From NCBI RefSeq assembly GCF_900116375.1, contig NZ_UETB01000009.1, forward strand, positions 1-64,000: a stretch of DNA of 64,000 bases. Reading direction: 5' to 3'. The position numbers and the translations under genes are program-made. Shown piece after piece: positions 507-19,701 of the stretch. Under the pieces are notes generated by a model. It saw nothing but the letters and a program-made list of their open reading frames with translations, did not search any database and had not been told where the DNA came from. The stretch's first letter is position 1. The number at the start of each line of letters is the position of its first letter. The DNA is from Georgenia satyanarayanai (GTDB lineage Bacteria > Actinomycetota > Actinomycetes > Actinomycetales > Actinomycetaceae).

Positions 507-511
507 CGGGT

Positions 512-922: not shown

Positions 923-933
923 GGGGGTCTCCT

Positions 934-1627: not shown

Positions 1628-1652
1628 TGGATAGGGTGCTGTCCAGTCCGGC

Positions 1653-3107: not shown

Positions 3108-3210
3108 GGCGCACCCCCGACCGCGTGGCTGGAGGTGGCTGCTGGCTGGGCGCCGAGGGTCTCGTGTCGGAGGTCGAGCGAGGGTGTCACCGTCTGGTGT
3201 CCTTCCGTGG

Positions 3211-3256
3211 CACGGGCGAGCCCTGCCGCCGCGAGGGAGGGCAGGGCTCGTCCGTG
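3211..3256 (-). terminator. Hairpin downstream of the arsO-like gene
   Basis: Arms 3211-3227 and 3240-3256 (17 bp, one mismatch) around a 12-base loop, about 20 bases after the flavoprotein stop. There is no T-run, as is common for actinobacterial terminators. It could attenuate between the flavoprotein and arsB. Confidence 0.65.
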
Positions 3257-3276
3257 GGGTGTCGTGGTGTCGTGGG

Positions 3277-4665
3277 TCAGAGGGCGCCGCGGCCGTGGGC
3301 GAAGCCGGTGGGGAAGCCGATGAGCGCGGGTTCGGCCGGCGCCCCGCAGCAGTCGCTGGCCGCCTCCGGGGCAATGCTCATGCTCCCGTCGGCCTCCACC
3401 ACCGGGGTCGCGGTGGAGCACACCCCGGTCTCGGGCAGCTCCAGCTCGAGCGTGCTCGCGGCGGCCGTGTCGCCGGCCAGCTGGGCGACGATCGAGCGCA
3501 CCTGCTCGTAGCCGGTGGCCAGCAGGAACGTCGGGGCGCGGCCGTAGGACTTCGTGCCGGCGACGTAGAAGTCGGGCTCCGGGTGGGCCAGCACGTCGGC
3601 GCCGTGCGCGGGGACCGTCCCGCAGGAGTGGAGCTCCGGGTCGATGAGCGGAGCGAGCCGGCTGGGCGCCTCGACCGCGGGGTCGAGGGCGAGGCGCAGC
3701 TCGCGCAGCATCCCCAGGTCCGGGCGGAAGCCCGTCGCGCCCGCGACCCCGTCCACCACCAGGAGGCGCTCGCCCTGGGGCGTGGCGACCGTCAGCTCCA
3801 GGCGGTCCTCCGCCGGTCGCAGGGCGGTGATGGTGGTGGAGGGCATGAGCTCGACCTCGCCGGCCTCCACCGCCCGCCGCAGCTGCGAGCCGAGCATGCC
3901 ACGGGCCGGCAGCCCGTCGGCGTCACCCCCGCCGTAGGCCCGGTCGACCGAGGATCCGCGCACCAGCCAGGTCACCCGGGTGCCCGGCTCGGAACGACGC
4001 AGCCGGGCCAGGGACAGCAGCGTGTTCGCCGCCGAGTGTCCCGCACCCACCACCACGACGTGCCGGCCTGCCGCCCGTTCCCGGTCCCGCCCGAGCACGT
4101 CGGGCAGGGGGCCGAGGAGGAAGGGGGCGGCGTCGGCCTCACCGGTGGCGGGCAGCCCCGCCGTGCCGAGCGGGTTGCGCTGCGTCCAGGTCCCCGACGC
4201 GTCGATCACGGCCCTGGCGCGGTAGTCCACGACCTCACCGTCGATGGTGGCCCGCACGAGGAACGGACGCTCGCCGCGGCCGCGGCCGTGGGTCTTGTCC
4301 AGGCCGTCGCGGCTCACGGCCACCACGCGCGCACCGGTGACGATCCGCCCGCGCAGCGCGGCCGTGCTCGCCAACGGCTCGAGGTAGTCGCTGACGAGCT
4401 CACCGCCGGTCGGCAGGCGCTTGGGGCTCGGCGCCTGCCAGCCCTCCGCCTCCAGGAGGCGGCGGGCGGCGCCGTCGACGTTGAACTGCCAGGGCGAGAA
4501 CAGGCGGACGTGGGCCCACTGCCGCACCGCAGCGGCGACCGAGTCGCCGGCCTCCAGCACGAGCGGCTCCAGGCCCCGCTCCACGAGGTGAGCGGCGGCT
4601 GCCAGGCCCACCGGCCCAGCGCCGATCACGATCACCGGCAACGACGTCGGTGTTGTCGAGGGCAT
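3277..4665 (-). CDS. arsO: FAD/NAD(P)-binding flavoprotein of the ars operon (ArsO-like)
   Basis: 462 residues. An N-terminal FAD Rossmann motif ([15 protein letters not shown], about residues 11-25), a second nucleotide-binding motif ([17 protein letters not shown], near residue 200) and a C-terminal FAD-contacting region give the architecture of flavin-dependent monooxygenases and pyridine-nucleotide oxidoreductases. The C-terminal tail carries a vicinal Cys-Cys pair (SDCCGAP) and a further Cys, suitable for binding a trivalent metalloid, though this is inference. The ATG at 4665 has an AGGAAGG ribosome binding site 9 bases upstream. It is first in the minus-strand ars operon and divergent from arsR. 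Streptomyces ars clusters contain a flavin-binding arsO; the reaction of this protein is not established. Confidence 0.8.
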
Positions 4666-4745
4666 GGGTGGCCCCTTCCTGGAGAGCACGATGGCGCCCT
4701 CACATTGATGGTGCTCGATGTGACGAGGGCAGCATGTCAGATCAT

Positions 4746-5185: not shown

Positions 5186-5252
5186 GACCTCCCCCGTTCT
5201 CCTCACGCCAGCGTGCTGTGAGGGGGGAGGTCGGAGGAGAAGCGGGGAGGTC
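5186..5252. terminator. Inverted repeat between convergent arsR and GT9 gene
   Basis: Arms 5186-5204 and 5234-5252 (19 bp, two mismatches), with the right arm overlapping the stop codon of the minus-strand GT9 gene. It probably ends transcription from both sides. Confidence 0.6.
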
Positions 5253-6216
5253 AGTGAGCGGGTTGGCGGGCCACGAGGCCGGTGACCGCCTGCTCCACCT
5301 CCGCCACCGTGATGGCGGCCAGGGCGGGGTCGAGCTCGTCGGCGTGCGGGTCGCCGGTGCCGTCGCCGTGCCAGAGGACGACGTGGCGGTCGACGTCGAG
5401 AGCCGGTCCCCACGTCGTCGGCGGGGTCGGGCCGAAGAGGAGCACCGAGGGCGTGCCGACGCCCGTGGCCACGTGCGCCACGCCGGTGTCCCCGCACACG
5501 AGCAGGCGCGCCCCGGCCACGAGGGCCGCCAGCCCCGGCACGTCGAGCTCGCCGGCCACCGACTGGACGACGTCGCCGGCCACCTCCCTGCACAGCGCCG
5601 CCTCGGCGGCCGAGCCGGTGACCAGCACCCGGTGCCCGTCGCCGGCCAGCCGACGCGCCAGCTCGCGCCAGCGCTCGGCCGGCCAGCGGCGCGACCCGGA
5701 GGCCGCGCCGGGGTGGAGCAGGACGGCGCCGGCGCCGCCGGTGGCCGGATCGACCGGCAGGCGCAGGTCCTCCGGACCGCACTCACCCCCCGCGGCGGTG
5801 AGCAGTCGGCACCAGCGCGCCACCTCGTGCTCCCCGTCGCGGAAGTCCGGGGCGACGTCGTCGGGGGTGGCCGGGTGCCCGGCCTCCGCGCAGGCGAAGG
5901 CGACCAGCCGCGAGGGTTCGGTCGCCGCGAGCAGCCGGTGGCTCTGGGGACCGCGGCCGTGGAGGTTGACGGCCACGTGGCCACCCGTCCCGCCCACGGC
6001 CAGCGGCTGCTCCAGGCCCGTCGCCGGCACGACGCCGTCCACGAGCCCGAGCCGGACGAACCACCCGCCGGTGCCCTCGGGGCCGGCGAGGACCACCCGC
6101 CGGCCCGGCCACGCCCGCCGGACCCCGCGCAGCGCCGCGACGCCGGTGAGCGCGTCACCGAGGCCGAGCGCCCGCAGGACGAGGACGTCGCCGGGCCCGA
6201 GGCCGGCTAGGGCCAC
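5251..6216 (-). CDS. Glycosyltransferase family 9 (heptosyltransferase family)
   Basis: 321 residues with the two-Rossmann GT-B layout of heptosyltransferases. The N-terminal motif LRALGLGDALTGVAALRGVR (about residues 14-33) matches the family LGD signature, the second domain opens with VLLHPGAASGSRRWP, and a CGDTGVAHVATGVGTPSVLLFGPT block contacts ADP-sugar in characterised relatives. It is the last gene of the eight-gene glycan operon and overlaps the SDR stop by 10 bases. It is predicted to transfer heptose from an ADP-activated donor made by the operon; the acceptor is unknown. Confidence 0.88.
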   Translation of the reverse strand: MALAGLGPGDVLVLRALGLGDALTGVAALRGVRRAWPGRRVVLAGPEGTGGWFVRLGLVDGVVPATGLEQPLAVGGTGGHVAVNLHGRGPQSHRLLAATEPSRLVAFACAEAGHPATPDDVAPDFRDGEHEVARWCRLLTAAGGECGPEDLRLPVDPATGGAGAVLLHPGAASGSRRWPAERWRELARRLAGDGHRVLVTGSAAEAALCREVAGDVVQSVAGELDVPGLAALVAGARLLVCGDTGVAHVATGVGTPSVLLFGPTPPTTWGPALDVDRHVVLWHGDGTGDPHADELDPALAAITVAEVEQAVTGLVARQPAH

Positions 6217-6899
6217 GACGGCTCGCCGGAGGCCATGACGACCATCTCGCGGATCTCACAGCCCACCGGCTGCTGCAGCGCCATGAGGACGGTCCCCGCG
6301 GTGTGCGCGGGGTCGTTGAGGTCCTGGTCGGGGCCGGGCTTGAAGCGCTCGTCGCGCCCGTCGAAGAACGCCGTGCGCATCCCGCCGGGCACGAGACAGG
6401 TGACCCCCACCCGCCCCGCGTACTCCGCGGCCAGCGCCTGGGAGAAGCCACGGACGGCGAACTTCGACGCGGAGTAGGCGGTCGCGGCGTCGGCGCCCTT
6501 GAGGCCGAGGGTGGAGGAGACCGTGACGACCGTCCCGCGGCTCTCCTCGAGGTGGGGCAGCGCGGCGCGCACGACGGCGACCGTCCCGAGGAGGTTGACG
6601 TCGATGACCCGACGCCAGTCCGCGGGGTCGATCTCGAGCAGCGGCCCGCACGCGTCGGTCCCCGCCGCCGTGACGACCGCCGTCGGCGGCCCGACCTGCT
6701 CGACGAGCGAGGCGACCGCCGCCGTCGCCGCGTCCCAGTCGCTGAGGTCCGCCACGGCGTGCGGCACGTCCACCGAGGGAGCCACCCGGTCGATGACGGC
6801 CGGGCGTCCGCCCGCCGCCGCCACCGCCTCGACGACGGCGGCCCCCAGGCCTCCCGCCCCTCCGGTGACGTAGACAGTTCCGACCTCGCGTGCGTTCAC
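6207..6899 (-). CDS. Short-chain dehydrogenase/reductase in the heptose operon
   Basis: 230-residue classical SDR. The cofactor motif is TGGAGGLG (residues 12-19), followed by an AAGTD loop in place of NNAG, the catalytic serine region VVTVSSTLGLKG and YSASK (Tyr and Lys catalytic). The GTG at 6899 overlaps the end of gmhA-hldE as GTGA. At this length it is not the extended-SDR epimerase HldD (normally above 300 residues). It may oxidise or reduce a sugar or glycan precursor, but the substrate cannot be assigned. Confidence 0.85.
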   Translation of the reverse strand: MNAREVGTVYVTGGAGGLGAAVVEAVAAAGGRPAVIDRVAPSVDVPHAVADLSDWDAATAAVASLVEQVGPPTAVVTAAGTDACGPLLEIDPADWRRVIDVNLLGTVAVVRAALPHLEESRGTVVTVSSTLGLKGADAATAYSASKFAVRGFSQALAAEYAGRVGVTCLVPGGMRTAFFDGRDERFKPGPDQDLNDPAHTAGTVLMALQQPVGCEIREMVVMASGEPSWP

Positions 6900-9025
6900 C
6901 CTGCTCCTCCCGTTGACCGTGCGTGCTCCGCGGCCTGGGCGGCCTGCTCGGAGCGGTTGATGATGGATGTCGTCGACCGGCCGCCCAGGTAGGGCAGCAG
7001 GACGACCCGGCCGCCGTGCGCCTGCACGACCTCCGTCTCCGGCAGCGGCCTGCCGCCGTAGTCCCCGCCCTTGGCCCAGATGTCGGGGCGCAGGTGGGTG
7101 AGCGTGCCGCGCGGGTCGTCGTCGTCGAAGACGACGACGGCGTCCACGCAGTCCAGCGCCTCGAGCACCTTGGCGCGGTCGGCCGCGGGCACGACCGGCC
7201 GGCCTTGCCCCTTGAGGCGGGTGACCGACGCGTCGGAGTTCATGAGGACGACGAGGCGGTCTCCGAGCCGGCGCGCGGCCTGGAGGGTCGCGACGTGCCC
7301 GGCGTGCACGATGTCGAAGCAGCCACCGGTCGCGACGACGGTCGCGCCGTCCCCGCGCAGCCGCGTGGCCAGCTCGCGCAGCGCGTGCGGCTCGGCCTTG
7401 AGGACGCCGCCGCGGTCGGTGGGCGCCGCGGGCGTCTCGGCCGGCTCGCCGACGGGCTGCCGGCGGCCGCGGAAGCCCTCGGCGCCGCCGGCGGCGACCC
7501 ACGCGGAGGCGTCGGCGACGGCGGACTCGACCGCCTCGGAGAGCAGCGCGCCGGAGGCCAGGGCGCTGGCGGCGCTCGCGGCGAACCGGTCGCCGGCCCC
7601 GCAGGGGTCACCACCGTGGGTGGCGACCGCGGGGACGTAGCTCGTCTCGTCGTCGTGCGCAGCGAGGAACGCGCCGTCCGCGCCGGCGGTCACGCACACC
7701 CCGCGGGCCCGCCACGCGGTGCGCAGGGCCGCCGCGGCGACGTCGGCGGGTGCGTCGGGCCGCTCGGTGGCGGAGCGGGCCTCGCTGAGGTTGGGCGTCA
7801 CGAGTGCGGCGCCGGGGACCGGGTCGCCACCGCGGGGGTGGGGGTCCCACACGAGCCGCGTGCGGCGGGCGGCCTCGGCGAGCAGCTCGCGCAGACCGGG
7901 GTGGCGGGTCGTGCCCGCGCCGTAGTCGGAGACGAGGACGGCGTCGGCGCTCGCGAGCACCCGCGCGACCTCCTCGAGGGGCAGGTGCTCACCGGGGCTG
8001 CCGGGGCCGCCGTCGTCGACCCGGACGAGCGACTGGCCGCCGCTGCGGATGCGGGTCTTGCGCCGGGTGGCGCCCTCGTGGGGCAGGCGCAGGACCGTCA
8101 GGTGCTCCTCGAGCTCGGCCACGAGCCGGTCACCGTGCTCGTCGTCGGCGATCGGCGCGACGAGGGTGACGCGGCCGGTGCACAGCAGCGCCGCGAGACC
8201 CGCGCCTCCAGGGCTGTGGCGCGTGGTGCTCACGTCGAGCACCGGGACGGGGGCGTCGGGGGACAGGCGTACGACCTCACCGTCGACGTCCGCGTCGAGG
8301 ACGACGTCCCCGACCACGACGACGTGCGGTGCGGAGTCTCCCGTACCCCCATCCCGCCGAGCGCTGAGCTGTTCCGGGCCGGACCCGTCCTGCGCAGGTG
8401 CCTCACCATCCCGCCGAGCGCTGAGCCGTTCCTCGGAGGAGACGGCCGTGCCCCCCACCCCGAGGTGGCGGTCGAGGGCGGCGCACAGCGCGTGGATGGC
8501 GACGAGATGGCCTTCCTGGACGGCCGCCGTCGAGGGCGCCTCGACGCACAGCGCGTCGTCGCACAGCTCGGCGAGCGGGTTGGGAGCGGGGCCGGTGAGG
8601 CCCCAGACGGTCAGGCCGAGCTCGCGGCCGCGCTCGGCGGCGCGCAGGACGTTGGGGCTCTTCCCCGAGGTGGACAGGAGCACGAGGACGTCACCGGGGC
8701 GCCCGTGCCCCTCGACCTGGCGGGCGAACATCTCCTCCGCGCCGTAGTCGTTGACGATCGCGCTCACGCTGGAGGACTCCGAGCACAGCGAGATCGCCGA
8801 GAAGGAGCGTCGGTCGTGGAGGAAGCGGCCGACGAGCTCGGAGGTGAGGTGCTGGGCCTCCGCGGCGCTGCCGCCGTTGCCCGCCGCGAGCAGCCGCGCG
8901 CCGCCGGACAGGCGCCCGGCGAGCTCGGCGGCCCACTGCTCCACGGTGCCGGCGTGGTCCTGGAGGAAGCCGAGGGCGGTCTCGAGCTCTGCCCGGTGCT
9001 CGTCGATCCAGTGCTGGGCGCTCAT
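6896..9025 (-). CDS. gmhA-hldE: GmhA-HldE fusion: sedoheptulose-7-phosphate isomerase, heptose-7-phosphate kinase and heptose-1-phosphate adenylyltransferase
   Basis: 709 residues in three domains. Residues 1-190 form a GmhA-type SIS domain (AAGNGGSAAEAQHLTSELVG; STSGKSPNVL; catalytic VQEGH). Residues 232-540 form a PfkB-family HldE kinase ending in the GAGD motif near residue 475. Residues 560-709 form a nucleotidyltransferase with HAGH in GGCFDIVHAGHV. Together these would convert sedoheptulose-7-P to heptose-1,7-bisP and, after GmhB, heptose-1-P to ADP-heptose. The linker (about 190-231) contains two in-frame copies of a dispersed repeat encoding EERLSARRDG and PEQLSARRDG. ATGA overlap joins it to the preceding glycosyltransferase. 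In Gram-negative bacteria GmhA and HldE are separate proteins. Confidence 0.92.
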   Translation of the reverse strand: MSAQHWIDEHRAELETALGFLQDHAGTVEQWAAELAGRLSGGARLLAAGNGGSAAEAQHLTSELVGRFLHDRRSFSAISLCSESSSVSAIVNDYGAEEMFARQVEGHGRPGDVLVLLSTSGKSPNVLRAAERGRELGLTVWGLTGPAPNPLAELCDDALCVEAPSTAAVQEGHLVAIHALCAALDRHLGVGGTAVSSEERLSARRDGEAPAQDGSGPEQLSARRDGGTGDSAPHVVVVGDVVLDADVDGEVVRLSPDAPVPVLDVSTTRHSPGGAGLAALLCTGRVTLVAPIADDEHGDRLVAELEEHLTVLRLPHEGATRRKTRIRSGGQSLVRVDDGGPGSPGEHLPLEEVARVLASADAVLVSDYGAGTTRHPGLRELLAEAARRTRLVWDPHPRGGDPVPGAALVTPNLSEARSATERPDAPADVAAAALRTAWRARGVCVTAGADGAFLAAHDDETSYVPAVATHGGDPCGAGDRFAASAASALASGALLSEAVESAVADASAWVAAGGAEGFRGRRQPVGEPAETPAAPTDRGGVLKAEPHALRELATRLRGDGATVVATGGCFDIVHAGHVATLQAARRLGDRLVVLMNSDASVTRLKGQGRPVVPAADRAKVLEALDCVDAVVVFDDDDPRGTLTHLRPDIWAKGGDYGGRPLPETEVVQAHGGRVVLLPYLGGRSTTSIINRSEQAAQAAEHARSTGGAG
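8355..8375 (-). repeat. Dispersed 21-bp element, in-frame copy 1 in gmhA-hldE
   Basis: One mismatch to the minus-strand consensus GGAACAACTCAGCGCTCGGCG; it encodes EQLSARR inside the interdomain linker. It lies 57 bases (19 codons) from the sister copy. Confidence 0.85.
8412..8432 (-). repeat. Dispersed 21-bp element, in-frame copy 2 in gmhA-hldE
   Basis: Two mismatches to the consensus; it encodes EERLSARR. It is in the same reading frame and orientation as the copy at 8355-8375. Confidence 0.85.
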
Positions 9026-10248
9026 GCGGTCGCCGCCTTCCGGGACGTCGTGGTGCGGGCGACGCTGACCTCGGCGTAGGCCGCCTCGGTCGCGGCGGCC
9101 ACCCGCTCCCAGCTGAAGCGATCCTCGGCACGGGCGCGGGCGGCCTCGCCGTAGCGGGCGCGCACCTCCGGGTCGACGAGGAGGCGGGTGATGGCCGCGG
9201 CGAGCGCGTCGGGCTCGCGCGGGGGGACGAGGGAGCCGGTGCGGCCGTCCTCGACGGAGTCGAGCAGCCCGCCGACGGCGCTGCCCACGAGCGGGCGCCC
9301 GCAGGCGGCGGCCTCGAGCGGCACGATCCCGAAGGGCTCGTACCAGGGGGTGGCGACGACGATGTCCGCGGAGCGGATGAGCGCGGGCACGCCGGTGCGC
9401 GGCACCGAGCCGACGAACCGGACCCGGTTCTCGACGCCGAGCTCCTCGGCGAGGGCGTGCAGCCGCCGTGCCTCCGGGTCGGTGCGGATGTGGGACTGGT
9501 CGGGGCCGCCGGCGACGAGCAGCTCGACGTCGGGCAGCAGCGGCAGCGCGGCGACGACCGTCTCCACGCCCTTGCGCTCGACGAGCCGCCCGATGGACAG
9601 CAGCCGGAAGGGCTGGTCGCCGGGCGGGGGGTGGGCCTCGCCGTCGGGGCTGAAGAGCTGGACGTCGACCCCGCACGGCACCACGCGCACCCGCGACCGG
9701 TCGATGCCCATCGCCTCGAGCTCGGTGACCTCGTCGCTGCACGTCGCCACGACGAGGTCCGCCTCGGTGGCCACGCGCGTCTCGGCCGCGACCCGGCCGG
9801 CGGGGCTGGTGTCCTTGGCGCCCTGGTGGCGGCGCTTGACGGTGCCCAGGGCGTGGAAGGTGTGGACGAGCGGCACGGGCACCTGCTCGGCCGCCTCGAG
9901 AGCGGCGAGCCCGGACATCCAGAAGTGCGAGTGGACGACGTCGGGGCGGTCCGCGCCCGCCCAGCGCTGGGCCAGCCAGCGGCCGAACTCGGGCATGTAG
10001 GGGAGCAGGTGGTCCTTGGGCAGCACCTGCGCCGGCCCGGCGGGGACGTGGACGACCCGCACACCGGGCAGCATCTCGACCTGCTCGGGCAGGTCGGGGT
10101 CGTCCCGGCGGGTGTAGACGGCGACGTCGTGCCCGCGCCGGGCGAGGGCGGCCGCGAGGGCGGCGACGTGGACGTTCTGTCCACCGGCGTCCTCGCCGCC
10201 GAGCGCTGCCAGCGGGCTGGCGTGCTCCGACACCATGGCGATTCTCAT
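9022..10248 (-). CDS. Glycosyltransferase family 4 (GT-B)
   Basis: 408 residues. The N-terminal GT-B signature (MVSEHASPLAALGGEDAGGQ then NVHVAALAAAL) carries the glycine-rich acceptor loop. The C-terminal domain shows SIGRLVERKGVETVV and the EX7E donor motif (EPFGIVPLEAAACGRPLVGS). A retaining sugar-nucleotide transferase acting at the cytoplasmic face is expected. Start and stop overlap neighbours as ATGA, so it is translationally coupled to the upstream transferase and to gmhA-hldE. Its sugar could be heptose, mannose or glucose; sequence does not decide. Confidence 0.88.
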   Translation of the reverse strand: MRIAMVSEHASPLAALGGEDAGGQNVHVAALAAALARRGHDVAVYTRRDDPDLPEQVEMLPGVRVVHVPAGPAQVLPKDHLLPYMPEFGRWLAQRWAGADRPDVVHSHFWMSGLAALEAAEQVPVPLVHTFHALGTVKRRHQGAKDTSPAGRVAAETRVATEADLVVATCSDEVTELEAMGIDRSRVRVVPCGVDVQLFSPDGEAHPPPGDQPFRLLSIGRLVERKGVETVVAALPLLPDVELLVAGGPDQSHIRTDPEARRLHALAEELGVENRVRFVGSVPRTGVPALIRSADIVVATPWYEPFGIVPLEAAACGRPLVGSAVGGLLDSVEDGRTGSLVPPREPDALAAAITRLLVDPEVRARYGEAARARAEDRFSWERVAAATEAAYAEVSVARTTTSRKAATA

Positions 10249-11204
10249 CGGACGACCTCCTTGAGCAGCGACTGCCAGTCCGCGAGGAAGCGGGCGGCGG
10301 AAAAGGTCTCGGTGGCGTGGCGGCGGGCGGCCTGGCCGCGCTCGCGCGCCTCGTCGGGGTCGGCGAGCCAGCGCAGCGCCGCCTCCTCGAGCACCCGCGG
10401 GTTCGCCGACACGACGCCGGCGTCCGCCGGGACGGCCTCGGGGGCCGCCGTCGTCGCCAGGGCGAGCACGGGCAGGCCGAGCGTCATCGCCTCGATGAGC
10501 GACAGCCCGAGCGAGGTCCACCGGTAGGGGTGCAGGTAGGCGCGCTGCCGGGCGAGGAGGGGGTGCATCTCGGACTGCCGCACGTCCTCGTGCAGGTGCC
10601 CGGCCAGGTCGGGCGCGTGCTCCTCGAGCGCGGCCATCCCCATCCCGTACACGGACAGCGGGACGGTCCTGGACAGGTCGAGCACGACGTCGGTGCCCGC
10701 CACCCGCCACCGGCGCACCGGCTCGTTGACGACGACGCCGACCCGCTCCTCCTCGCCCGTGTACAGGTACCCGGGGTCGAGGACGCCGTGGTCGATGACC
10801 GTCGTCGGCGCCCGGCCGCAGTCCCACACGAGCGCGTTGAAGTGGGTGACGTGGACGATCGGGATGTCGCTGCGGTCCGCGAGCGGGTGGCGGGTGCGCA
10901 CGGCGTCGCCGTTCGGGGTGTTGTGCTCGACGTACACGGCGGGCACGTCGGTGCCGGGGCGCAGTCCGGTCCACTCCTCGAAGAGCGCGATCTCGTGCGG
11001 CCGCTGGAGGACGACGACGTCGCAGCCCTCCTCCCGCAGCTCCGCGGGGCTGAGCTCGCGGGCGTTGGCGGGCCAGTCCCACGTGCGGGCCCGGCCCAGC
11101 CCGTCGGGCCCGCGGTCGGGGAGCACCGGGATGAGGTACTCGTCGGGACCGGTGACGAAAGGGGTCAGCCAGGACCCGTGGACGTGCCAGACGGCGACCT
11201 TCAC
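10245..11204 (-). CDS. Glycosyltransferase, GT4-like
   Basis: 319 residues from a GTG at 11204 that overlaps the preceding stop as GTGA. The N-terminal half is divergent (VAVWHVHGSWLTPFVTG; VYVEHNTPNGD). The C-terminal half has a GT-B donor-site block (PYRWTSLGLSLIEAMTLG then LPVLALATTAAPEAVP), including the paired glutamates. An in-frame extension upstream exists but is arginine-rich shadow sequence. Role in the heptose glycan operon is by context only. Confidence 0.82.
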   Translation of the reverse strand: MKVAVWHVHGSWLTPFVTGPDEYLIPVLPDRGPDGLGRARTWDWPANARELSPAELREEGCDVVVLQRPHEIALFEEWTGLRPGTDVPAVYVEHNTPNGDAVRTRHPLADRSDIPIVHVTHFNALVWDCGRAPTTVIDHGVLDPGYLYTGEEERVGVVVNEPVRRWRVAGTDVVLDLSRTVPLSVYGMGMAALEEHAPDLAGHLHEDVRQSEMHPLLARQRAYLHPYRWTSLGLSLIEAMTLGLPVLALATTAAPEAVPADAGVVSANPRVLEEAALRWLADPDEARERGQAARRHATETFSAARFLADWQSLLKEVVR

Positions 11205-12349
11205 GCCATGACCTCCTGGGGGGCGAGGGACGCGACGGCGTCCACGACCTGCTCGGGACGGATGCCGGTGAGGCAGGGGTGGCCCGGCACCGGGCACTCC
11301 CGGGCGCGGGTGTCGGCGCACGCGGCGAGCTGGTCGCCGAGCACGACGGTCGGCACGCCGTAGGGGGCCCACCGCTCGGCGGGCACCACCGGGGAGAAGA
11401 GGGAGACGACGGGGGTCCCGACGGCGGCCGCGAGGTGCGCCGGGCCGGTGTTGCCGACGACGACGCACGCGGCGCCGTCGAGCACGGCGGCCAGCTGGGG
11501 CAGGTCGGTGCGGCCGGTGAGGTCGTGGACACCCGGGCCGGCGGCGGGGGCCTGCTCGCCCGGCCCGCCGGTGACGACGACGTCCCACCCGGCCGCCACG
11601 AGAGCGCCGGCGATCGCCCGCGCGTGCTCCGGCGCGATGGCCCGAGCCGGCACCGAGGCCCCCGGGTGCAGCACGACGTACTCGCCCCGTCGCCGAGCGC
11701 TGAGCTGTTCCTGCACGAGGGGGGCTCCGCCAGTAACAAGTGAGCTCTCGGCGGGGAGGGGGGTGGCGGGGAGGGGGTGGCTCCCCTCTCGCCGAGCGCT
11801 GAGTTGTTCCTCGGCGGGGAGGGGGGCGCTGTCGGTGAGGAGGGGGGTGGCGTCGGGGAGGGGGCGGCGGACGGCGAGGCGGCCGTCGTCGCCCGGCGGC
11901 AGCTGCGCGCCGGCGGCGCGGGCGAGGTCGAGGGCGGCCTCGACCTCGTGGAGGCCCTCGGGGCGCTGGTGGCGGACGTCGAGGAGCGAGCCGGGGTAGT
12001 CCACGCTCGTCGCGGAGACGTGCCCGATCCCCGCCAGCTTCGCGAGCAGCGCCATCGGCAGCGGGCTCTGGTGGAAGGAGGTGAAGACGACCGCCCGGTC
12101 GTAGCGGCGGGCCGCGAGCGTCGCGACGAGCCCGTCGATGGCCGCCGGGTCGACGGCGGGTGGCCGGTAGCCCGACCACGGCGCGTCGACGACGAGCACC
12201 TCCCGCACCCCAGGCAGCAGCCGGGCGGCCCCCGCGCCGGACGGACCCGCGAGGAGGTCGACGTCGTCGTGGGCCGCGAGGGCCCGGACGGCGGGCCCGG
12301 TGAGGAGGACGTCGCCGTCGTTGTCGAGGCGCACGGCGAGGGTCGTCAT
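11201..12349 (-). CDS. Glycosyltransferase family 9 with repeat-derived insertion
   Basis: 382 residues, about 50-60 longer than the GT9 at 5251-6216. The N-terminal Rossmann domain carries LDNDGDVLLTGPAVRAL; the second begins at EYVVLHPGASVPAR and includes VVGNTGPAHLAAAVGTP. Between them (about residues 160-223) lies a Pro/Ala/Ser-rich segment containing two EQLSARR copies of the dispersed 21-bp element and a degenerate inverted copy. The insertion falls in the interdomain linker, so the enzyme is probably still active. Predicted to use an ADP-heptose-type donor. Overlaps both neighbours by 4 bases. Confidence 0.88.
   Translation of the reverse strand: MTTLAVRLDNDGDVLLTGPAVRALAAHDDVDLLAGPSGAGAARLLPGVREVLVVDAPWSGYRPPAVDPAAIDGLVATLAARRYDRAVVFTSFHQSPLPMALLAKLAGIGHVSATSVDYPGSLLDVRHQRPEGLHEVEAALDLARAAGAQLPPGDDGRLAVRRPLPDATPLLTDSAPLPAEEQLSARREGSHPLPATPLPAESSLVTGGAPLVQEQLSARRRGEYVVLHPGASVPARAIAPEHARAIAGALVAAGWDVVVTGGPGEQAPAAGPGVHDLTGRTDLPQLAAVLDGAACVVVGNTGPAHLAAAVGTPVVSLFSPVVPAERWAPYGVPTVVLGDQLAACADTRARECPVPGHPCLTGIRPEQVVDAVASLAPQEVMA
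11691..11711 (-). repeat. Dispersed 21-bp element, in-frame copy 1 in GT9
   Basis: One mismatch to the consensus; it encodes EQLSARR just before the second GT9 domain. A degenerate inverted copy (17 of 21) lies at 11733-11753, so the pair could form a hairpin. Confidence 0.85.
11733..11753 (+). repeat. Degenerate inverted copy of the 21-bp element
   Basis: It matches the consensus at 17 of 21 positions on the opposite strand to the flanking copies, forming the arm facing 11691-11711. Confidence 0.55.
11790..11810 (-). repeat. Dispersed 21-bp element, in-frame copy 2 in GT9
   Basis: Exact match to the consensus; it encodes EQLSARR followed by REG. The downstream CGAGAGGGGAG also resembles the repeat units after purB. 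Confidence 0.85.
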
Positions 12350-13860
12350 CGCTCGTCACCCGCCATCGTGAGGACGAGGTCGACGGCGGAGGCGAGGTCC
12401 GCGGCGACGTGCTCGGCACGCTCGACCTCCTCCGTGCGGGTGACCGGCGTCGGAACGAGCACGGCGCGGGCACCGGCGGCCTGGGCGGCGCCGACGTCGG
12501 CACCGATGTCCCCGACGACGACGCACTCGTGCGGTGCCACGCCCAGGGTCTCGGCGGCGCGCAGCACCATGCCCGGCCCGGGTTTGCGGCAGGTGCAGCC
12601 GTCCCCCGGGCCGTGCGGGCAGTGCTCGACGACGTCGAACGAACCGAGCAGGTCCTGGACACGCTCGTTGACCCGGGAGACGTCCTCGGCGCTGATGAGA
12701 CCGCGGGCGATGCCGGACTGGTTGGTCACCATGCCGACGAGCAGGCCTCCGGCGCGCAGCCGGCGCACCGACTCCGCGGCGTCGGTCACCGTGCGGACCC
12801 TGGCGGGGTCACCGTTGTAGGGGACGTCCTCGACGATCGTGCCGTCGCGGTCGAGCAGGGCGGCGCGGAGCGGCGGCGGCCACGCGGGCACGTCGCGGAA
12901 CCTCACCGCTCCGTGCAGCCGGTGCCACACCGCCGACCAGGGGATGGCCACGCTCGTCCACACCATCCGGCGCCACTCGGCGGCCCAGCCCTCCTCACCG
13001 GGACGGGGGCCCGGCGCGATGCGGCGCACGGTGAAGTCGGCGGTCAGGCCCGCCCACGTGGCGGCCGCCGCGGCGGCGGCGCGCCGGCGACCGGCGGCCG
13101 CGAGGAGCGTGGCGGCGGACCCGGCCGCGACGGTGGCGACGTGCCAGCGGAAGCGCCCGCGGCCCGTGCCGCCGATCTCGCGCCAGCCGGGGCCGTGCAG
13201 CGCGCGCATGAGGGAGTCGGAGGCAGAGCCGGCCTGCATGCGCAGGCTGACGGCGTCGTCCGCGGGCCGCACCGGGTGGAGGATCTCGCGCTCGCCGCGG
13301 ACCAGCTCCCAGCCGGCCCGGGTGACCCGCAGGGCGAGGTCGGCGTCCTCCCGGTAGGCGCGCGGGAACCGCTCGTCGAAGCCGTGGACGGCGGCGAGGG
13401 CCGCGCGCCGGTAGGCCATGTCAGCCGTCGCCCACCTGGCGGTCTCCAGGCCGGCGGTGTTGCGCTCCCAGTCGGTGGGGCGCCGGTGCTGCGGCAGCGG
13501 GACGGTGATGCGGCCCTGCGTGGCACCCACCTCCGGACCGCACGCCGCGAGGTCGGCCGCGAGCCGGGTGGACCAGTTCGCGGGGAGGCGGACGTCGTCG
13601 TCGAGGAAGGCGACCCACTCGGTGGTGGCGGCACGCCACCCCGCGTTGCGGGCGGCGGCGGGGCCACGCCCGCCGGAGCGCAGCACCTCGACCGGGACGT
13701 CGCCCGGCGGCAGGTCGAGGGGCTCGGCCTGGTCGAGCGGGCGGTCGTCGACGAGGACGACCCGCTCGGGGGCCGGCCCGCCCTGACCGAGCAGGTCGGT
13801 GAGCACCTCCCGGAGGGAGGGGCGGCCGACGGTGGGGACGACGACGGTGTAGCCGCTCAC
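12346..13860 (-). CDS. Fusion of family 2 glycosyltransferase and GmhB-like heptose bisphosphatase
   Basis: 504 residues. Residues 1-320 form a GT2 domain (VVVPTVGRPSLREVL; acceptor/metal region AFLDDDVRLPANW; DADLALRVTRAGWELV). From about residue 330 there is a HAD phosphatase of GmhB type: nucleophile motif LLDRDGTI, VTNQSGIARG, the Cys/His zinc loop CPHGPGDGCTCRKPGPGM and VGDIGADVGAAQAAGA. GmhB removes the 7-phosphate from heptose-1,7-bisphosphate between the two HldE reactions, completing the pathway with gmhA-hldE. ATG at 13860 overlaps the carbamoyltransferase stop. Confidence 0.9.
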   Translation of the reverse strand: MSGYTVVVPTVGRPSLREVLTDLLGQGGPAPERVVLVDDRPLDQAEPLDLPPGDVPVEVLRSGGRGPAAARNAGWRAATTEWVAFLDDDVRLPANWSTRLAADLAACGPEVGATQGRITVPLPQHRRPTDWERNTAGLETARWATADMAYRRAALAAVHGFDERFPRAYREDADLALRVTRAGWELVRGEREILHPVRPADDAVSLRMQAGSASDSLMRALHGPGWREIGGTGRGRFRWHVATVAAGSAATLLAAAGRRRAAAAAAATWAGLTADFTVRRIAPGPRPGEEGWAAEWRRMVWTSVAIPWSAVWHRLHGAVRFRDVPAWPPPLRAALLDRDGTIVEDVPYNGDPARVRTVTDAAESVRRLRAGGLLVGMVTNQSGIARGLISAEDVSRVNERVQDLLGSFDVVEHCPHGPGDGCTCRKPGPGMVLRAAETLGVAPHECVVVGDIGADVGAAQAAGARAVLVPTPVTRTEEVERAEHVAADLASAVDLVLTMAGDER

Positions 13861-15551
13861 GCGACCGCCACCGCGGCGTCGTCCTCCACCGCCGCCCCGG
13901 CCGCCTCGTGCGTGGCGAAGAGCTCGGAGCGACGGACGAGGTGGGGGCCGAGGACGAGCAGGTCGACCGGCGCGGAGCCGAAGAGCTCGAGCGCGTCACG
14001 GGGGTCGTCGACCATGGGCCGTCCGGCCGTGTTGAGGCTCGTGTTGATGACGACGGGCAGGCCGGTGCGCTCGGCGAACGCCGCGATCGTCGCGCCGAGG
14101 CGCGGCTGGCGCTCGGCGTCGACGGTCTGGATGCGCGCGGTGCCGTCGACGTGGACCGCCGCGGGGATGCGGTCGCGCCACTCCGGGCGGACCGTGTGCA
14201 CGAAGAGCATGTAGGGGCTGGGGATCGGGCCGTCGGTGAAGATCTCCTCGGCGCGGTCGGCGAGGACCATCGGCGCGACCGGCCGGAACTGCTCCCGGCC
14301 CTTGACGTCGTTGATGCGCTCGAGGTTCCTCTCCAGCCCCGGGTGGGCGAGGAGGGAGCGGTGGCCCAGCGCGCGCGGCCCGAACTCGCTGCGCCCGTCG
14401 AACCAGGCGATGACACCGTTGCTGGCGAGCACCTCGGCCACCTGCTCGGGCAGGTCGTCGGGGGTGGTGAAGGGCACCTTGGCCGTCGTCAGCCACCGGG
14501 CGAGCTCGTCGTCGGACCAGGCGCGGCCGAGGTCCGCCCCCGCGATCGGACGCGGCTCGGCGCCGCGGTCCGCGGCGACCTGGAGGGCCGCGCCCAGGGA
14601 CGTCCCTGCGTCGCCGGCGGCAGGCTGCACCCACACGTCCTCGAAGGGGGTCTCTCGCCAGATGCGGGAGTTGGCCACGCAGTTGAGCGCGGTGCCGCCC
14701 GCCATCGTCAGCGCGGTGTCCCCGGTCTGCTCGTGGAGCCAGCTCGCGAGGTCGACGAGGACCTCCTCGAGCCGCGCCTGGACCGAGCAGGCGAGGTCGG
14801 CGTGGGGACCGCCCCACGTACCGTCGTCGATGCGCGGCTCCACCCACCGCGACCAGTCGGGGACCGGGGCGAGGAAGCCGCCGTCCTCGGTGGCGTGGAT
14901 GGTCTCGCGCAGCTCCTCGAGGAAGCGCGGCTTGCCGTAGGAGGCCAGGGCCATGACCTTGTACTCGTCGGAGGAGCGCAGGAAGCCCAGGTGCTCGGTG
15001 AGCGACTCGTAGAGCAGGCCCAGGGAGTGCGGCAGCTGCTGCCCGGCGAGCGTCTCGAGCCTGCCGCCGGAGTAGCGCCCGGCGAGGTGGGAGGCGTGCT
15101 CGCCGCGGCCGTCGAGGACGAGGACGCTCGAGCTGGCGTGCGGGGAGGCGAGGGCGCCGGAGGCGGCGTGGGCCACGTGGTGCGGGACGAAGACGACCTT
15201 CTCCGGGTCGAGCCCCGGCAGGGCGGCGGCGAGGAACTGCGGGGCGCGCTCGGCGTAGGTGAGGCGCAGGTGGTCCCACGGGTCGTCCAGGCCCATCTCG
15301 TGAGCCGGGCGCGCGAGGGAGGGGTCGAAGGAGTAGGCGACGGCGTCGAGGTCCTTGGGCTCCAGGCCTGCCTGCTGGAGGCACCAGCGCATCGACAGCT
15401 CCGGGAGCTCCCACGCCGAGAAGGGCACCGGCCGCTTGCCGTGCTTGCGCCTGCTGAAGCGCTCCTCCTCCGCCGCCGCGACCACCTTGCCGTCGATGAC
15501 GAGCGTGGCCGACGGGTCGTGGAACAGCGCGTTGACCCCGAGAACTCGCAT
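13857..15551 (-). CDS. NodU/CmcH-family carbamoyltransferase
   Basis: 564 residues. The N-terminal Kae1-like domain begins MRVLGVNALFHDPSA and carries the VPHHVAHAASGA histidine pair and LVLDGRGEHASH. The C-terminal YrdC-like domain has FDGRSEFGPRALGHRSLLAHP and INTSLNTAGRPMVDDP. The family transfers a carbamoyl group from carbamoyl phosphate, via carbamoyl-adenylate, to sugar hydroxyls. It is the first gene of the eight-gene operon, so a carbamoylated sugar in the glycan is the natural reading. It is divergent from the aldehyde dehydrogenase across 97 bases. Confidence 0.92.
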   Translation of the reverse strand: MRVLGVNALFHDPSATLVIDGKVVAAAEEERFSRRKHGKRPVPFSAWELPELSMRWCLQQAGLEPKDLDAVAYSFDPSLARPAHEMGLDDPWDHLRLTYAERAPQFLAAALPGLDPEKVVFVPHHVAHAASGALASPHASSSVLVLDGRGEHASHLAGRYSGGRLETLAGQQLPHSLGLLYESLTEHLGFLRSSDEYKVMALASYGKPRFLEELRETIHATEDGGFLAPVPDWSRWVEPRIDDGTWGGPHADLACSVQARLEEVLVDLASWLHEQTGDTALTMAGGTALNCVANSRIWRETPFEDVWVQPAAGDAGTSLGAALQVAADRGAEPRPIAGADLGRAWSDDELARWLTTAKVPFTTPDDLPEQVAEVLASNGVIAWFDGRSEFGPRALGHRSLLAHPGLERNLERINDVKGREQFRPVAPMVLADRAEEIFTDGPIPSPYMLFVHTVRPEWRDRIPAAVHVDGTARIQTVDAERQPRLGATIAAFAERTGLPVVINTSLNTAGRPMVDDPRDALELFGSAPVDLLVLGPHLVRRSELFATHEAAGAAVEDDAAVAVA

Positions 15552-15575: not shown

Positions 15576-15624
15576 TCACCTATAGGTGATTCGCTGCTCA
15601 CGCTGCCCGAGAGAAGTACTTCTC
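15576..15624. promoter_or_regulatory. Two perfect 14-bp palindromes in the divergent promoter of the glycan operon
   Basis: TCACCTATAGGTGA at 15576-15589 and GAGAAGTACTTCTC at 15611-15624, both self-complementary, lie 35 bases apart start-to-start between the carbamoyltransferase and the aldehyde dehydrogenase. The positions suit operators or activator sites. They differ from each other, so they may bind different regulators. Confidence 0.5.
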
Positions 15625-15648
15625 GCACCTCGACATGGAGGCTCGACT

Positions 15649-17109
15649 GTGACGACCACCCAGACCGCCCCTGCTCGCACCGCGGAGCTCGCTCTCCACC
15701 TCCTGGACGGACGGGTCTCGCCGGCCACCGGGGCACGGCGGCTGCAGCGGGAGGACCCCAGCGGATCGGGGACGGTGACGACGCTCGTGCCGGCGACGGT
15801 GGAGGAGGTCACCGCCGCGGTCGACGCCGCCTGGCGGGCACGCACCGCCTGGCGTCGCACCGCACCCGCGGAGCGTGCCGCGGCGCTGCGTGCGGCCGCG
15901 GCGGCCGTCCGCGCCGACGCCGACCGGCTCGGGGAGCTGCTCACGGCCGCGACCGGACGGCTGCTCGGGCAGTCGGTCGAGTCCGCCACCGTGGCTGCCG
16001 ACCTCCTGGAGGAGGCGGCGACGACCGGTCTCGGTGCGGCCGGCCGGACGCTCGCCGGCGCGACGGGGGCCCTGGACGTGGTGCGCCGGGAGCCCCGGGG
16101 CGTCGTCGCGGTCATCACCCCGTGGAACGACCCGTTCCCGGCGGCGGCGGGCCTCCTCGCGGCCGCGCTCGTCACCGGCAACACCGTGGTGCACAAGCCC
16201 TCGGAACGCTCGGCGGTGCCGGCTTGGGAGATGGCCCGCCTCGTCGCCGACGCGCTGCCCGCCGGGGTGGTCAACGTCGTCAACGGCGACGGCGAGACGG
16301 GTGCCGCCGTCGTCGCCGACGAGCGCGTGGCCCTCGTGGCGCACGTGGGCTCGACGGTGGCCGGCCGGCGCATCGCCGCCGTCGCCGGCGCGCGCGGCGC
16401 GAAGGTGCTGCTCGAGAACGGCGGCGCGGACGCGATCGTCGTCGACTCCGGCGTCGACCCGCGGTGGGCCGCCGAGCAGATCGCCACGGGCGCCTTCACC
16501 AACACCGGACAGATCTGCACCTCCGTCGAGCGCGTGTACGTGCACGACGACGTCGCCGACGCCGTCGTCGCCGAGCTCGCCGACGTCGCGGACGCGCTCG
16601 TCGTCGGGGACCCGGCGGACCCGGCCACGACGCTCGGACCGCTCGTGGACGCGGACCAGCTCGCCGTCGTCGAGGAGCACGTGCGTGCCGCGGTGGACGG
16701 CGGCGCCCGGTGCGTCACCGGAGGTGCGCCGCTCGACCGGCCCGGCAGCTTCTACGCCCCCACGGTGCTCGATGGCTGCGCACCGCACTCGGACGCCGTC
16801 GCCGAGGAGACCTTCGGCCCGGTGGCCGCGATCGTGCGCGTGCCCGACTTCGACACCGCGCTGTCCCTCGCGGGGGAGAGCCGGTACGGGCTGGCCGCGA
16901 CCGTCCTCACCCCGGACCTCGGTCACGCGCTGCGCGCCGCCGAGGAGCTCGAGGTGGGCACGGTCAAGGTCAACGGTGTCTTCGGTGGTGCGCCGGGCGG
17001 CTCCGCCGACCCGCGCCGCGACAGCGGCACCGGTGCCGGCTACGGCCCTGACCTGCTCGCCGAGATGACGGTCCTCAAGACCGTGCACCTCGAGGCGCCG
17101 GGCGCCTGA
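15649..17109 (+). CDS. Aldehyde dehydrogenase family protein
   Basis: 486-residue NAD(P)-dependent dehydrogenase. Catalytic Cys290 sits in GQICTS and the general base Glu256 in LLENGG, where family members usually have LELGG. VITPWNDPFP and HKPSERSAVPAWE give the cofactor and core motifs, and EETFGPVAAI is near the C-terminus. The GTG at 15649 was chosen for its ATGGAGG ribosome binding site; the longer in-frame reading is arginine-rich. It is divergent from the glycan operon and may share its promoter region. The substrate is unknown. Confidence 0.9.
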   Translation: MTTTQTAPARTAELALHLLDGRVSPATGARRLQREDPSGSGTVTTLVPATVEEVTAAVDAAWRARTAWRRTAPAERAAALRAAAAAVRADADRLGELLTAATGRLLGQSVESATVAADLLEEAATTGLGAAGRTLAGATGALDVVRREPRGVVAVITPWNDPFPAAAGLLAAALVTGNTVVHKPSERSAVPAWEMARLVADALPAGVVNVVNGDGETGAAVVADERVALVAHVGSTVAGRRIAAVAGARGAKVLLENGGADAIVVDSGVDPRWAAEQIATGAFTNTGQICTSVERVYVHDDVADAVVAELADVADALVVGDPADPATTLGPLVDADQLAVVEEHVRAAVDGGARCVTGGAPLDRPGSFYAPTVLDGCAPHSDAVAEETFGPVAAIVRVPDFDTALSLAGESRYGLAATVLTPDLGHALRAAEELEVGTVKVNGVFGGAPGGSADPRRDSGTGAGYGPDLLAEMTVLKTVHLEAPGA

Positions 17110-18798: not shown

Positions 18799-19701
18799 TC
18801 AGCCGTACCGGCGGGCGGTCGACGCGCGCTGGGCGTCCTCGAGCGCACGAAAACGTGCCTCGGCGTGGGCGGGCAGCACCCGGCGCTCCGTGAGCACCCA
18901 GGGCGCCCCCCGGAGCGCGGCGAGCACACCTGCGAGCGCGGTCCGCGAGCGCAGCTGGCTCAGCACCACCGCGGTGCGGCGCAGGGCGGCGGGCAGCGGG
19001 CGGCGCAGCCAGGTGAACCACAGGGTGTTGCGGACGCCGTCGCGCTGCCGCCTGGTCGTGTCGCGCGCCGTGGAGGCGTGGTGGTGGACGGTGGTGGTGG
19101 GCAGGTAGCACAGCTCCCAGCCCACGGCGGCGAGGTCCGCGGCGAGGAGCTCCTCCTCCCCGCCCAGCCACAGACGCGGGTGGAAGCCGCCGACACCGAC
19201 GAACGCGCTGCGCCGCACGACCGACGCGCCGGCGAGGAAGCTGCCGAGCGCCGGTCCGGGCAGCCCCGGGCGGCCCTGGACGGGGGAGTCGCGCAGCTCG
19301 GCGACGATCGGGTCCTCCGTCCCGGCGGGCTCGACGAGGATCCGCGCGGTGAGGACCGCGACGTCCGGGTGCGCGTCGAGCGCGTCGGCCGCGGCGGTGA
19401 GGCTGCCCGGGTCCCACCACGTGTCGTCGTCGCAGAAGGCGACGTAGGGGGTGTCGAGGAGCTGCACACCGAGGTTGCGGCCCACCGCACCGAGGTTGCG
19501 GCGGCTCTCCAGCAGCGTCACCCACGGGTGGTCGTGCCGCACCGCCTGCGCCGTCCCGTCGCTCGAGCCGTTGTCGACGACGACGACCGGCGGCGCCTCG
19601 GGCAGCGCCCGCAGCAGGTGCAGCGTCCGGTCCAGCTCGGTGCGCCGGTTGTGGGTGATGACGACGACGCCGACGCGCGGGTCCGGTCCAGATGAGGTCA
19701 T
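18799..19701 (-). CDS. Family 2 glycosyltransferase
   Basis: 300 residues, GT-A fold. VGVVVITHNRRTELDRTL opens the nucleotide-binding domain; VVVDNGSSDGT, the metal-binding CDDDTWWDPGS (DxD) and WLGGEEELLAADLAAVGWEL (acceptor/catalytic ED-type region) follow. C-terminal basic helices could lie on the membrane. It stands alone between the GAF protein and the luciferase-like gene but probably belongs with the glycan locus at 5251-15551. Donor and acceptor are unknown. Confidence 0.88.
   Translation of the reverse strand: MTSSGPDPRVGVVVITHNRRTELDRTLHLLRALPEAPPVVVVDNGSSDGTAQAVRHDHPWVTLLESRRNLGAVGRNLGVQLLDTPYVAFCDDDTWWDPGSLTAAADALDAHPDVAVLTARILVEPAGTEDPIVAELRDSPVQGRPGLPGPALGSFLAGASVVRRSAFVGVGGFHPRLWLGGEEELLAADLAAVGWELCYLPTTTVHHHASTARDTTRRQRDGVRNTLWFTWLRRPLPAALRRTAVVLSQLRSRTALAGVLAALRGAPWVLTERRVLPAHAEARFRALEDAQRASTARRYG

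Follow-up and report, generated by a model that had tools for sequence, protein, structure and literature searches.

The window, a 64,000-nucleotide stretch of the Georgenia satyanarayanai genome (contig NZ_UETB01000009.1), contains eight minus-strand open reading frames between positions 5251 and 15551, each junction being a 4-base overlap except the last, which spans 10 bases. The first gene of this operon encodes an O-carbamoyltransferase of the NodU/CmcH/TobZ family (13857..15551; Pfam Carbam_trans_N/C). It is followed by a fusion of a GT2 glycosyltransferase to a GmhB/HisB-type HAD phosphatase (12346..13860; Pfam Glycos_transf_2 and HAD, the latter at about residues 326–504), a GT9 protein with a conserved Asn in NTGxxH (GT9a; 11201..12349; Pfam Glyco_transf_9), a short GT4-like transferase that we used as tracer of the cluster (GT4a; 10245..11204; Pfam GT4 domain), a second GT4 protein resembling MshA and sucrose-phosphate synthase (GT4b; 9022..10248; Pfam GT4 domain, TIGR03449), a 709-residue tridomain NDP-heptose synthetase (6896..9025; Pfam SIS_2, PfkB and CTP_transf_like), a classical SDR oxidoreductase (6207..6899; Pfam adh_short), and GT9b, the more heptosyltransferase-like of the two GT9 proteins (5251..6216; Pfam Glyco_transf_9, DTGxxH). 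The heptose, GT9, GT4-like, GT2 and carbamoyltransferase domains named in the original prediction all exceeded Pfam cut-offs in these overlapping frames, but GmhA, kinase and nucleotidyltransferase are domains of one 709-residue frame, GmhB is fused to GT2, and the SDR was absent from that prediction. Two genes lie nearby: a divergent aldehyde dehydrogenase of uncertain membership (15586..17109, plus strand; Pfam Aldedh), present in 22 of the 93 actinobacterial loci described below, and an additional GT2 transferase, GT2x (18799..19701, minus strand), a probable accessory member found in 57/93 of those loci and in 7/8 loci from Burkholderiales. Hydropathy revealed no stretch typical of a membrane helix in the gene set, and assembly of the product is therefore probably cytosolic.

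The tridomain protein combines a GmhA isomerase (residues 1–190), an HldE kinase (about 216–530) and an HldE nucleotidyltransferase (about 549–709) in a single frame, the arrangement that defines a tridomain heptose synthetase; its GmhA–kinase linker holds two copies of a genome-wide repeat. The best NCBIfam names for the operon proteins were GmhA, HldE, GmhB and heptosyltransferase, but every score fell below the curated equivalog cut-off (HldE, 271.9 against 521; rfaE_dom_II, 176.3 against 181.5; GmhA, 144.9 against 209.5; GmhB, 118.8 against 178), and we therefore regard the heptose enzymes as working like their namesakes rather than as certified equivalogs. The window proteins carry the expected motifs, namely GNGGSA..H..E and QExH in GmhA, GAGD in the kinase, HxGH in the nucleotidyltransferase domain, and DxD with Zn cysteines in the HAD domain, which matches the solved D,D-heptose 1,7-bisphosphate phosphatases 4pnh, 3l8e and 2gmw. 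The GAGD Asp and HxGH are kept in 84/84 aligned homologues (6 of 90 rows dropped by a length filter); the GmhA motifs are not universal, with 67 of 85 rows matching both patterns used, and both HAD patterns occur in 82 of 117 rows, a set that takes in GT2-only and truncated ones. The nucleotidyltransferase motif, YLGGRSTT, contains the Arg of the STTR5 motif (Arg683), with Tyr at the first position of (F/L)xxGRSTT; 60 of 84 homologues have this Arg and 14 have His. Given the Arg, the enzyme is predicted to make CDP- and UDP-heptose besides ADP-heptose. The ADP-heptose route originally proposed is thus sustained as a route to NDP-heptose whose catalytic motifs are in place, and its restriction to ADP needs refining.

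No HldD 6-epimerase was seen among the eight operon proteins, the SDR having been judged on the best 25 of 201 families; Tyr142 and Lys146 of the SDR are kept in 57/57 aligned homologues (1 of 58 filtered out by length). A nearby extended SDR (community c6) was considered as an HldD-like epimerase and rejected, as it matches the UDP-glucuronate decarboxylase (UDP-xylose synthase, UXS) structures 4gll and 2b69 with E values of about 1e-101 over nearly its full length. By sequence this protein is a UDP-glucuronate decarboxylase, a pentose-donor enzyme that goes with the locus; the copy in the window's own genome lies on contig C37 (97%) and adjoins an accessory GT2 gene.

The two GT9 proteins differ at the donor-site Asp of heptosyltransferases (DTGxxH). 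GT9b, which matches WaaC (2gt1/6dfe) with an E value of 4e-14, has Asp243 and His248 in 79/79 actinobacterial (none of 79 rows dropped by length) and 8/8 Burkholderiales homologues, whereas GT9a has Asn300 at that position in 89/89 aligned actinobacterial (1 of 90 dropped) and 8/8 Burkholderiales homologues. The WaaC Lys at position 192 aligns with Arg in both. GT4b scored 270.8 bits against TIGR03449 (MshA), well under the cut-off of 462.5; its nearest solved relatives are 6kih, which we take to be sucrose-phosphate synthase, and 3c4q. Lys78 and Arg152 of GT4b, which align with the Lys and Arg that bind phosphate in MshA, are kept in 79/79 actinobacterial homologues (12 of 91 rows dropped by length) and 8/8 from Burkholderiales, and the positions aligned to MshA Tyr110 and Thr134 are Phe (76/79) and Ala (79/79). 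The structures closest to the carbamoyltransferase are 7xb6, GdmN and TobZ, and its His124, His128 and Gly285 occur in 71/71 aligned homologues (1 of 72 dropped); from family membership it is a putative heptose-carbamoylating enzyme.

Of 393 genomes sampled from the class, 102 carried the GT4a tracer, as did 43 of 396 sampled from the phylum; the two samples overlap. A survey of the neighbourhood, proposed as a check in the original prediction, found the gene order unchanged in most of the loci examined, and this order is conserved over actinobacterial families and classes. Because it recurs across genomes and the catalytic residues are conserved, the operon is not a chance assembly. Among 93 loci, chosen as stretches of at least 15 kb with GT4a and the nucleotidyltransferase, we found GmhA, kinase, GT9a and GT4b in 92 each, GmhB in 91, GT2 in 86, GT9b in 85, carbamoyltransferase in 79 and SDR in 58. 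Identity of the window proteins to homologues in other actinobacterial classes is mostly 42–68% (two loci lower). PPE-positive genomes, which we take to be mycobacteria, carry the same cluster, so the contrast originally drawn with mycobacteria as a group is not supported. No flippase, polymerase or exporter common to the actinobacterial loci appeared among the 16 families present in at least 13 clustered loci. An MFS gene lies near 11 loci, and sigma-factor genes, a type too common to interpret, near 16/93.

The decarboxylase is present in at least 68 of the 93 loci, and four more have a fragment of it at the end of the stretch. Above threshold it is missing from 18 of the 79 loci with carbamoyltransferase; these comprise the four with an end fragment, one (L083) whose genome has the gene just beyond the stretch, and 13 others that include all nine such loci outside the class. 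Among 99 relatives, the decarboxylase accompanied the carbamoyltransferase in 15/15 cases as against 1/84 of the others, bearing in mind the non-independence of the relatives and of the loci, some of which are one genome fetched twice. Neither gene was seen without GT2 in the 93 loci; seven loci of Geodermatophilaceae type lack the carbamoyltransferase, and in another seven GT2, carbamoyltransferase and decarboxylase are all missing; one of these seven loci (L202) begins inside the cluster.

Counterpart loci occur in Burkholderiales. All eight carry GT4b, HAD, GT9a, carbamoyltransferase, GT2, GT9b, GT4a and the decarboxylase, at about 29–55% identity to the window proteins, and none of the eight fetched stretches contains GmhA, kinase or nucleotidyltransferase; TIGR02199 was also absent from the three such replicons searched whole (3/3). 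The missing synthesis genes would fit organisms that have LPS heptose. A PIG-L deacetylase is found in 7/8 of these loci and in 0/117 actinobacterial ones. Six of the eight have nearby a gene for an ABC exporter-like protein with a fused response regulator, and a seventh gave a partial match. In the literature passages retrieved, nothing linked the Burkholderia copy to the locus activated at low oxygen.

We consider the best explanation of the whole, with confidence somewhat above even, to be that an NDP-heptose is made and then built into a carbamoylated heptose/pentose oligosaccharide that is not LPS. The genome is of Gram-positive type as first described: its nearest named relatives are Georgenia, and LpxC, the mark of a lipid A pathway, had no match in it, while the same search was positive in 4 of 14 control genomes. 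The tridomain protein would isomerise sedoheptulose-7-phosphate and phosphorylate C1, the HAD (GmhB) domain would remove the 7-phosphate and the tridomain protein would then add the nucleotide, steps to which the sequences point. GT9b may transfer the heptose, GT9a, GT4a, GT4b, the GT2 domain and accessory GT2s may add the remaining sugars, the decarboxylase may supply UDP-xylose, and the carbamoyltransferase may cap a hydroxyl. Candidate acceptors are a lipid or wall precursor, with export left to other genes, and a soluble phosphorylated compound. The carbamoylated heptose glycan on a non-LPS acceptor initially envisaged thus finds partial support: the motifs, the lack of LpxC and the adjoining GT9 and carbamoyltransferase genes favour it, and it is strengthened by the Burkholderiales loci, where the transferases persist in the absence of the synthesis genes; only one GT9 keeps the Asp.

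One may postulate, as a possible though rather unlikely alternative, a soluble stress glycoside, in which GT4b glycosylates a small phosphorylated acceptor, the HAD phosphatase dephosphorylates it, and the other transferases extend it to an intracellular or secreted oligosaccharide for stress survival. The acceptor of MshA is inositol phosphate and that of sucrose-phosphate synthase is fructose-6-phosphate, and GT4b is closest to these enzymes and invariably keeps the Lys and Arg; however, the replacement of MshA Tyr110 and Thr134 indicates a pocket different from that of MshA. All eight Burkholderiales loci retain the GmhB-like HAD partner, which should not be needed there for heptose, and the domain may therefore act elsewhere; a DVPYN motif is common to the HAD of the window and of the two Burkholderiales loci read. 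The lack of hydrophobic stretches also agrees with a soluble product, as does the PIG-L de-N-acetylase, whose family includes MshB of mycothiol, although the exporter-type gene near most Burkholderiales loci points to export there. Several annotated records have stress-type neighbours (BON, DUF4142 and DUF892; Mn catalase, hemerythrin and CsbD; GAF-ANTAR, PP2C, STAS and CsbD), read by eye with no background comparison, and these are absent from the Caballeronia zhejiangensis record. A specialised metabolite resembling septacidin or hygromycin B appears improbable: the heptose of both is reported to derive from sedoheptulose-7-phosphate, but no aglycone-forming gene is among the annotated conserved families, and antibiotic clusters do not typically keep one gene order across a phylum and recur in Burkholderiales as well. 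The carbamoyltransferase here is related to TobZ and GdmN, members of the NodU family that do tailor antibiotics. That the genes are a functionless remnant of LPS-core genes from a Gram-negative donor, as domains recalling inner-core enzymes might suggest, is very improbable given the conserved catalytic residues and gene order, the lack of LpxC, and identities that are higher in other actinobacterial classes than in Burkholderiales.

Returning to the carbamoylated heptose/pentose oligosaccharide, the likely product judging from the gene content, a bolder proposal, which we hold to be unlikely, is that GT9a, GT9b, GT4a, GT4b, GT2, HAD phosphatase, carbamoyltransferase and UDP-xylose synthase form a cross-phylum module for a stress oligosaccharide not yet described, a carbamoylated heptose-pentose chain built on a soluble phosphorylated acceptor; Gram-negatives with the module would use LPS heptose, and LPS-free actinobacteria would carry the synthesis in the operon. 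Bolder still would be a glucosaminyl-inositol core as in mycothiol, with an MshA-like GT4b and a PIG-L enzyme in the locus only in Burkholderiales; actinobacteria would encode MshB elsewhere. What looked like LPS genes in a Gram-positive becomes a testable biosynthetic locus, its tracer present in about a quarter of the class genomes sampled. If the preferred reading is true, heptose would be in common use as a building block beyond LPS, labelling actinobacterial genes 'LPS heptosyltransferase' would mislead, and NDP-heptoses like those that ALPK1 senses could be made by many Gram-positives, mycobacteria apparently among them.

Among known systems, the LPS heptosyltransferases WaaC and WaaF share the GT9 family with both proteins here and the Asp and His of DTGxxH with GT9b, but GT9a has Asn and the genome has no LpxC. 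GT4b keeps the phosphate-site residues of MshA and sucrose-phosphate synthase and, with a score under the curated cut-off and two changed acceptor residues, does not qualify as MshA; the UXS gene lies here outside the eight-gene operon. By description, the carbamoyltransferase recalls the WapO-type putative carbamoyltransferase of Pseudomonas LPS, said in PMC8005017 to act on a heptose. Tang et al. 2022 deals, by its title, with tridomain NDP-heptose synthetases of actinobacteria, which likewise unite three activities in one protein, the window enzyme having in addition a repeat pair in its GmhA–kinase linker. Commentaries on Tang et al. 2024 (Science) describe STTR5 nucleotidyltransferases with Arg at position 5 (xxxGRSTT), as in the window, and Phe or Leu where the window enzyme has Tyr. 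The route itself, first taken as new in actinobacteria, is not, judging from paper titles of 2022 and 2018 and from statements that Streptomyces uses ADP-heptose, its heptose derived from sedoheptulose-7-phosphate, for septacidin and hygromycin B. Among the matches listed from the open-access literature we recognised no description of the whole cluster, and no paper in its searchable part names the conserved module's product; the noteworthy part is the conserved assembly module around the heptose route, not the route itself.

Eight minus-strand ORFs at 5251-15551 run head to tail, with successive overlaps of 4 bases and one of 10 at the last junction, the pattern expected of a translationally coupled operon. 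In transcription order they encode a carbamoyltransferase, a fusion of GT2 with a GmhB-type HAD phosphatase, GT9a, the short GT4-like transferase GT4a, GT4b, a single 709-aa protein that unites a SIS (GmhA), a PfkB (HldE kinase) and a cytidylyltransferase-like (HldE nucleotidyltransferase) domain, an SDR of the classical type, and GT9b. The original prediction, that this Gram-positive-type genome holds a full ADP-heptose route with heptosyltransferases and makes a carbamoylated heptose glycan, named these domains correctly; it overlooked the SDR and did not recognize that the three heptose domains form one ORF. Its observation is confirmed and its interpretation partly supported: the headline, a heptose route, is already known in kind from prior actinobacterial work, including ADP-heptose made by two Streptomyces according to a review, and further work is better directed at the assembly module and at how it is distributed across phyla. 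None of the open-access literature matches listed was recognised as describing the whole cluster. GT9a and GT9b are the only GT9 matches in the 3.9-Mb genome, and LpxC had no match in it (4 of 14 control genomes were positive). The closest named relatives are Georgenia, with GT4a at 94% among the matches listed, from which the genome's own record is perhaps excluded. Elsewhere in the window, a single-frame ORF at 20571-22844 combines a luciferase-like monooxygenase part with a FAD-binding/BBE oxidase part.

GT4a, used as a tracer (E <= 1e-30), turned up in 102 of 393 genomes sampled from the class, representing 43 of 123 genera, and in 43 of 396 from a phylum-wide sample that overlaps the first. 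The best 80 named GT4a loci include Streptomyces, Nocardiopsis, Planobispora, Cellulomonas, Kineococcus, Modestobacter, Blastococcus, Dietzia, Kocuria and Knoellia, among others. A search for the eight-gene neighbourhood, with called genes clustered by reciprocal best hits, recovered a largely constant order within the class and largely the same order beyond it. PPE-positive genomes also carry the cluster (5 of 9 tested genomes were PPE-positive, the named controls all negative); we take this marker as a sign of mycobacteria, and these carriers are therefore probably mycobacteria. In a set of 93 loci, each 15 kb or longer and selected for GT4a and the nucleotidyltransferase, counted without regard to relatedness and with some genomes present twice (L034/L082 and L035/L083 are the same contigs), GT2 occurs in 86, the carbamoyltransferase in 79, the other core genes in 85 to 92, a decarboxylase in 68, the SDR in 58 and two further GT2s in 58 and 57. 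Four Arthrobacter-type loci (L047, L048, L126 and L226) have no GT2, carbamoyltransferase or decarboxylase in the cluster's vicinity and possess an additional kinase/nucleotidyltransferase gene, adjoined in the first three by an aldehyde dehydrogenase.

The commonest gene family without a window member, an extended SDR found in 74 clustered loci, is a UDP-glucuronate decarboxylase (4gll and 2b69, E about 1e-101), the enzyme that produces UDP-xylose. The window's genome has a copy at 97% on another contig (C37:612-1562), adjoining an accessory GT2. Where the decarboxylase would be expected, downstream of GT9b, the window carries arsenic-type genes (ArsB, LMW phosphatase, flavin oxidoreductase; 1-4689); a genome of the same genus, G001, has these genes between GT9b and the decarboxylase, and the genome G004 does not have them. 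Because the window begins at a contig end inside this arsenic-type region, the two pieces probably form one locus. Across 99 relatives, all 15 with the carbamoyltransferase (E <= 1e-60) have the decarboxylase, as does 1 of the 84 without it (Fisher p 7e-17, uncorrected for kinship). Neither gene occurs without GT2 in any of the 93 loci, of which 61 have all three, 18 have no decarboxylase, 7 have no carbamoyltransferase and 7 have none; one of the last (L202) begins inside the cluster. In four of the 18, a partial decarboxylase stands at the end of the stretch, and in one (L083) the genome has the gene just beyond it; all nine such loci outside the class are among the remaining 13.

A tblastn search of a plasmid collection with GT4a returned 12 records, eight of them Burkholderiales, including two B. 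multivorans. All eight loci (fetched stretches of 25-29 kb) contain GT4b, the HAD phosphatase, GT9a, carbamoyltransferase, GT2, GT9b, GT4a and decarboxylase, and seven the accessory GT2x; GmhA, kinase and nucleotidyltransferase were found in none of these stretches (E <= 1e-5). TIGR02199 is missing from 3 of 3 such replicons, each searched entire, and a Streptomyces plasmid has one. Module-marking residues occur in 8/8: GT9a Asn300, GT9b Asp243, and GT4b Lys78, Phe109, Ala133 and Arg152. The simplest reading of this gene content is that LPS-bearing carriers would use chromosomal ADP-heptose and LPS-free carriers would bring their own synthesis. NDP-heptoses accumulate in Burkholderia multivorans and B. 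cepacia, according to a commentary on Tang et al. 2024. On Clavibacter californiensis plasmid pCCa, a lone GT4a homologue (48%; L216 9001-9957) adjoins a weak GT9 match, and the rest of the module was not found in the fetched stretch.

The acceptor may be a wall component or lipid; a serious rival is a soluble or inositol-type phosphorylated molecule, because Burkholderiales retain the HAD phosphatase and have a PIG-L de-N-acetylase gene at these loci (7 of 8, vs 0 of 117 actinobacterial loci; E <= 1e-8). The core set contains no membrane-helix-type hydrophobic stretch (top Kyte-Doolittle 19-residue mean 1.85), and there is no transporter among the 16 gene families present in at least 13 actinobacterial loci. 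Gene content speaks for export in Burkholderiales: six of eight loci encode an ABC exporter-type protein joined to a response regulator, one more has a partial match, and 4 of 117 actinobacterial loci have a weaker one. Examples of about 890-914 aa, with a response-regulator receiver domain at the C-terminus, lie at L215 4210-6954, L221 3529-6216 and L223 16018-18681. Several annotated records, read by eye, have stress-type neighbours; those in the Caballeronia zhejiangensis record are not of this type. The salt-induced genes given in a Frankia study (PMC5563000) include an 'ADP-heptose:LPS heptosyltransferase', perhaps a different gene from that of this cluster.

The window's heptose enzymes fall below NCBIfam equivalog cut-offs, and their functional names are therefore based on motifs and context. 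The GmhA part aligns with solved phosphoheptose isomerases (E about 1e-38), the kinase part with 4e84, and the HAD part with D,D-heptose 1,7-bisphosphate phosphatases of solved structure. All 84 aligned homologues conserve the HxGH and kinase GAGD residues, and 67 of 85 GmhA rows matched both motif patterns used. The nucleotidyltransferase motif is YLGGRSTT; according to a pair of commentaries on the Tang et al. 2024 study, Arg at the equivalent position is the hallmark of enzymes whose products include CDP- and UDP-heptose as well, and the window enzyme differs from the motif given there in having Tyr, not Phe or Leu, as its first residue. Of 84 homologues, 60 share this Arg and 14 have His. 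With up to 3 mismatches allowed, the 19-base repeat CCGAGCGCTGAGCTGTTCC matches the window 8 times vs 0.04 expected (8357-8432, 11693-11810, 52263-52301, 56067-56107); with up to 2, it matches the genome 128 times and its reversed control 0 times. Four copies fall in the coding sequence for linkers of GT9a and the tridomain protein, linkers that differ among Georgenia genomes.

GT9b aligns with WaaC (E 4e-14), and the GT9a match to WaaF is weaker (E 6.5e-5); the GT9b Asp and His are conserved in 79/79 aligned homologues, and the SDR Tyr and Lys in 57/57. The carbamoyltransferase aligns with 7xb6, GdmN and TobZ. The nearest solved relatives of GT4b are 6kih (listed as Tll1590), which we take to be a sucrose-phosphate synthase, and MshA, in which the aligned Lys and Arg bind inositol phosphate. 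GT4b homologues keep this phosphate-site Lys and Arg (79/79), but differ from MshA in having Phe for Tyr (76/79) and Ala for Thr (79/79).
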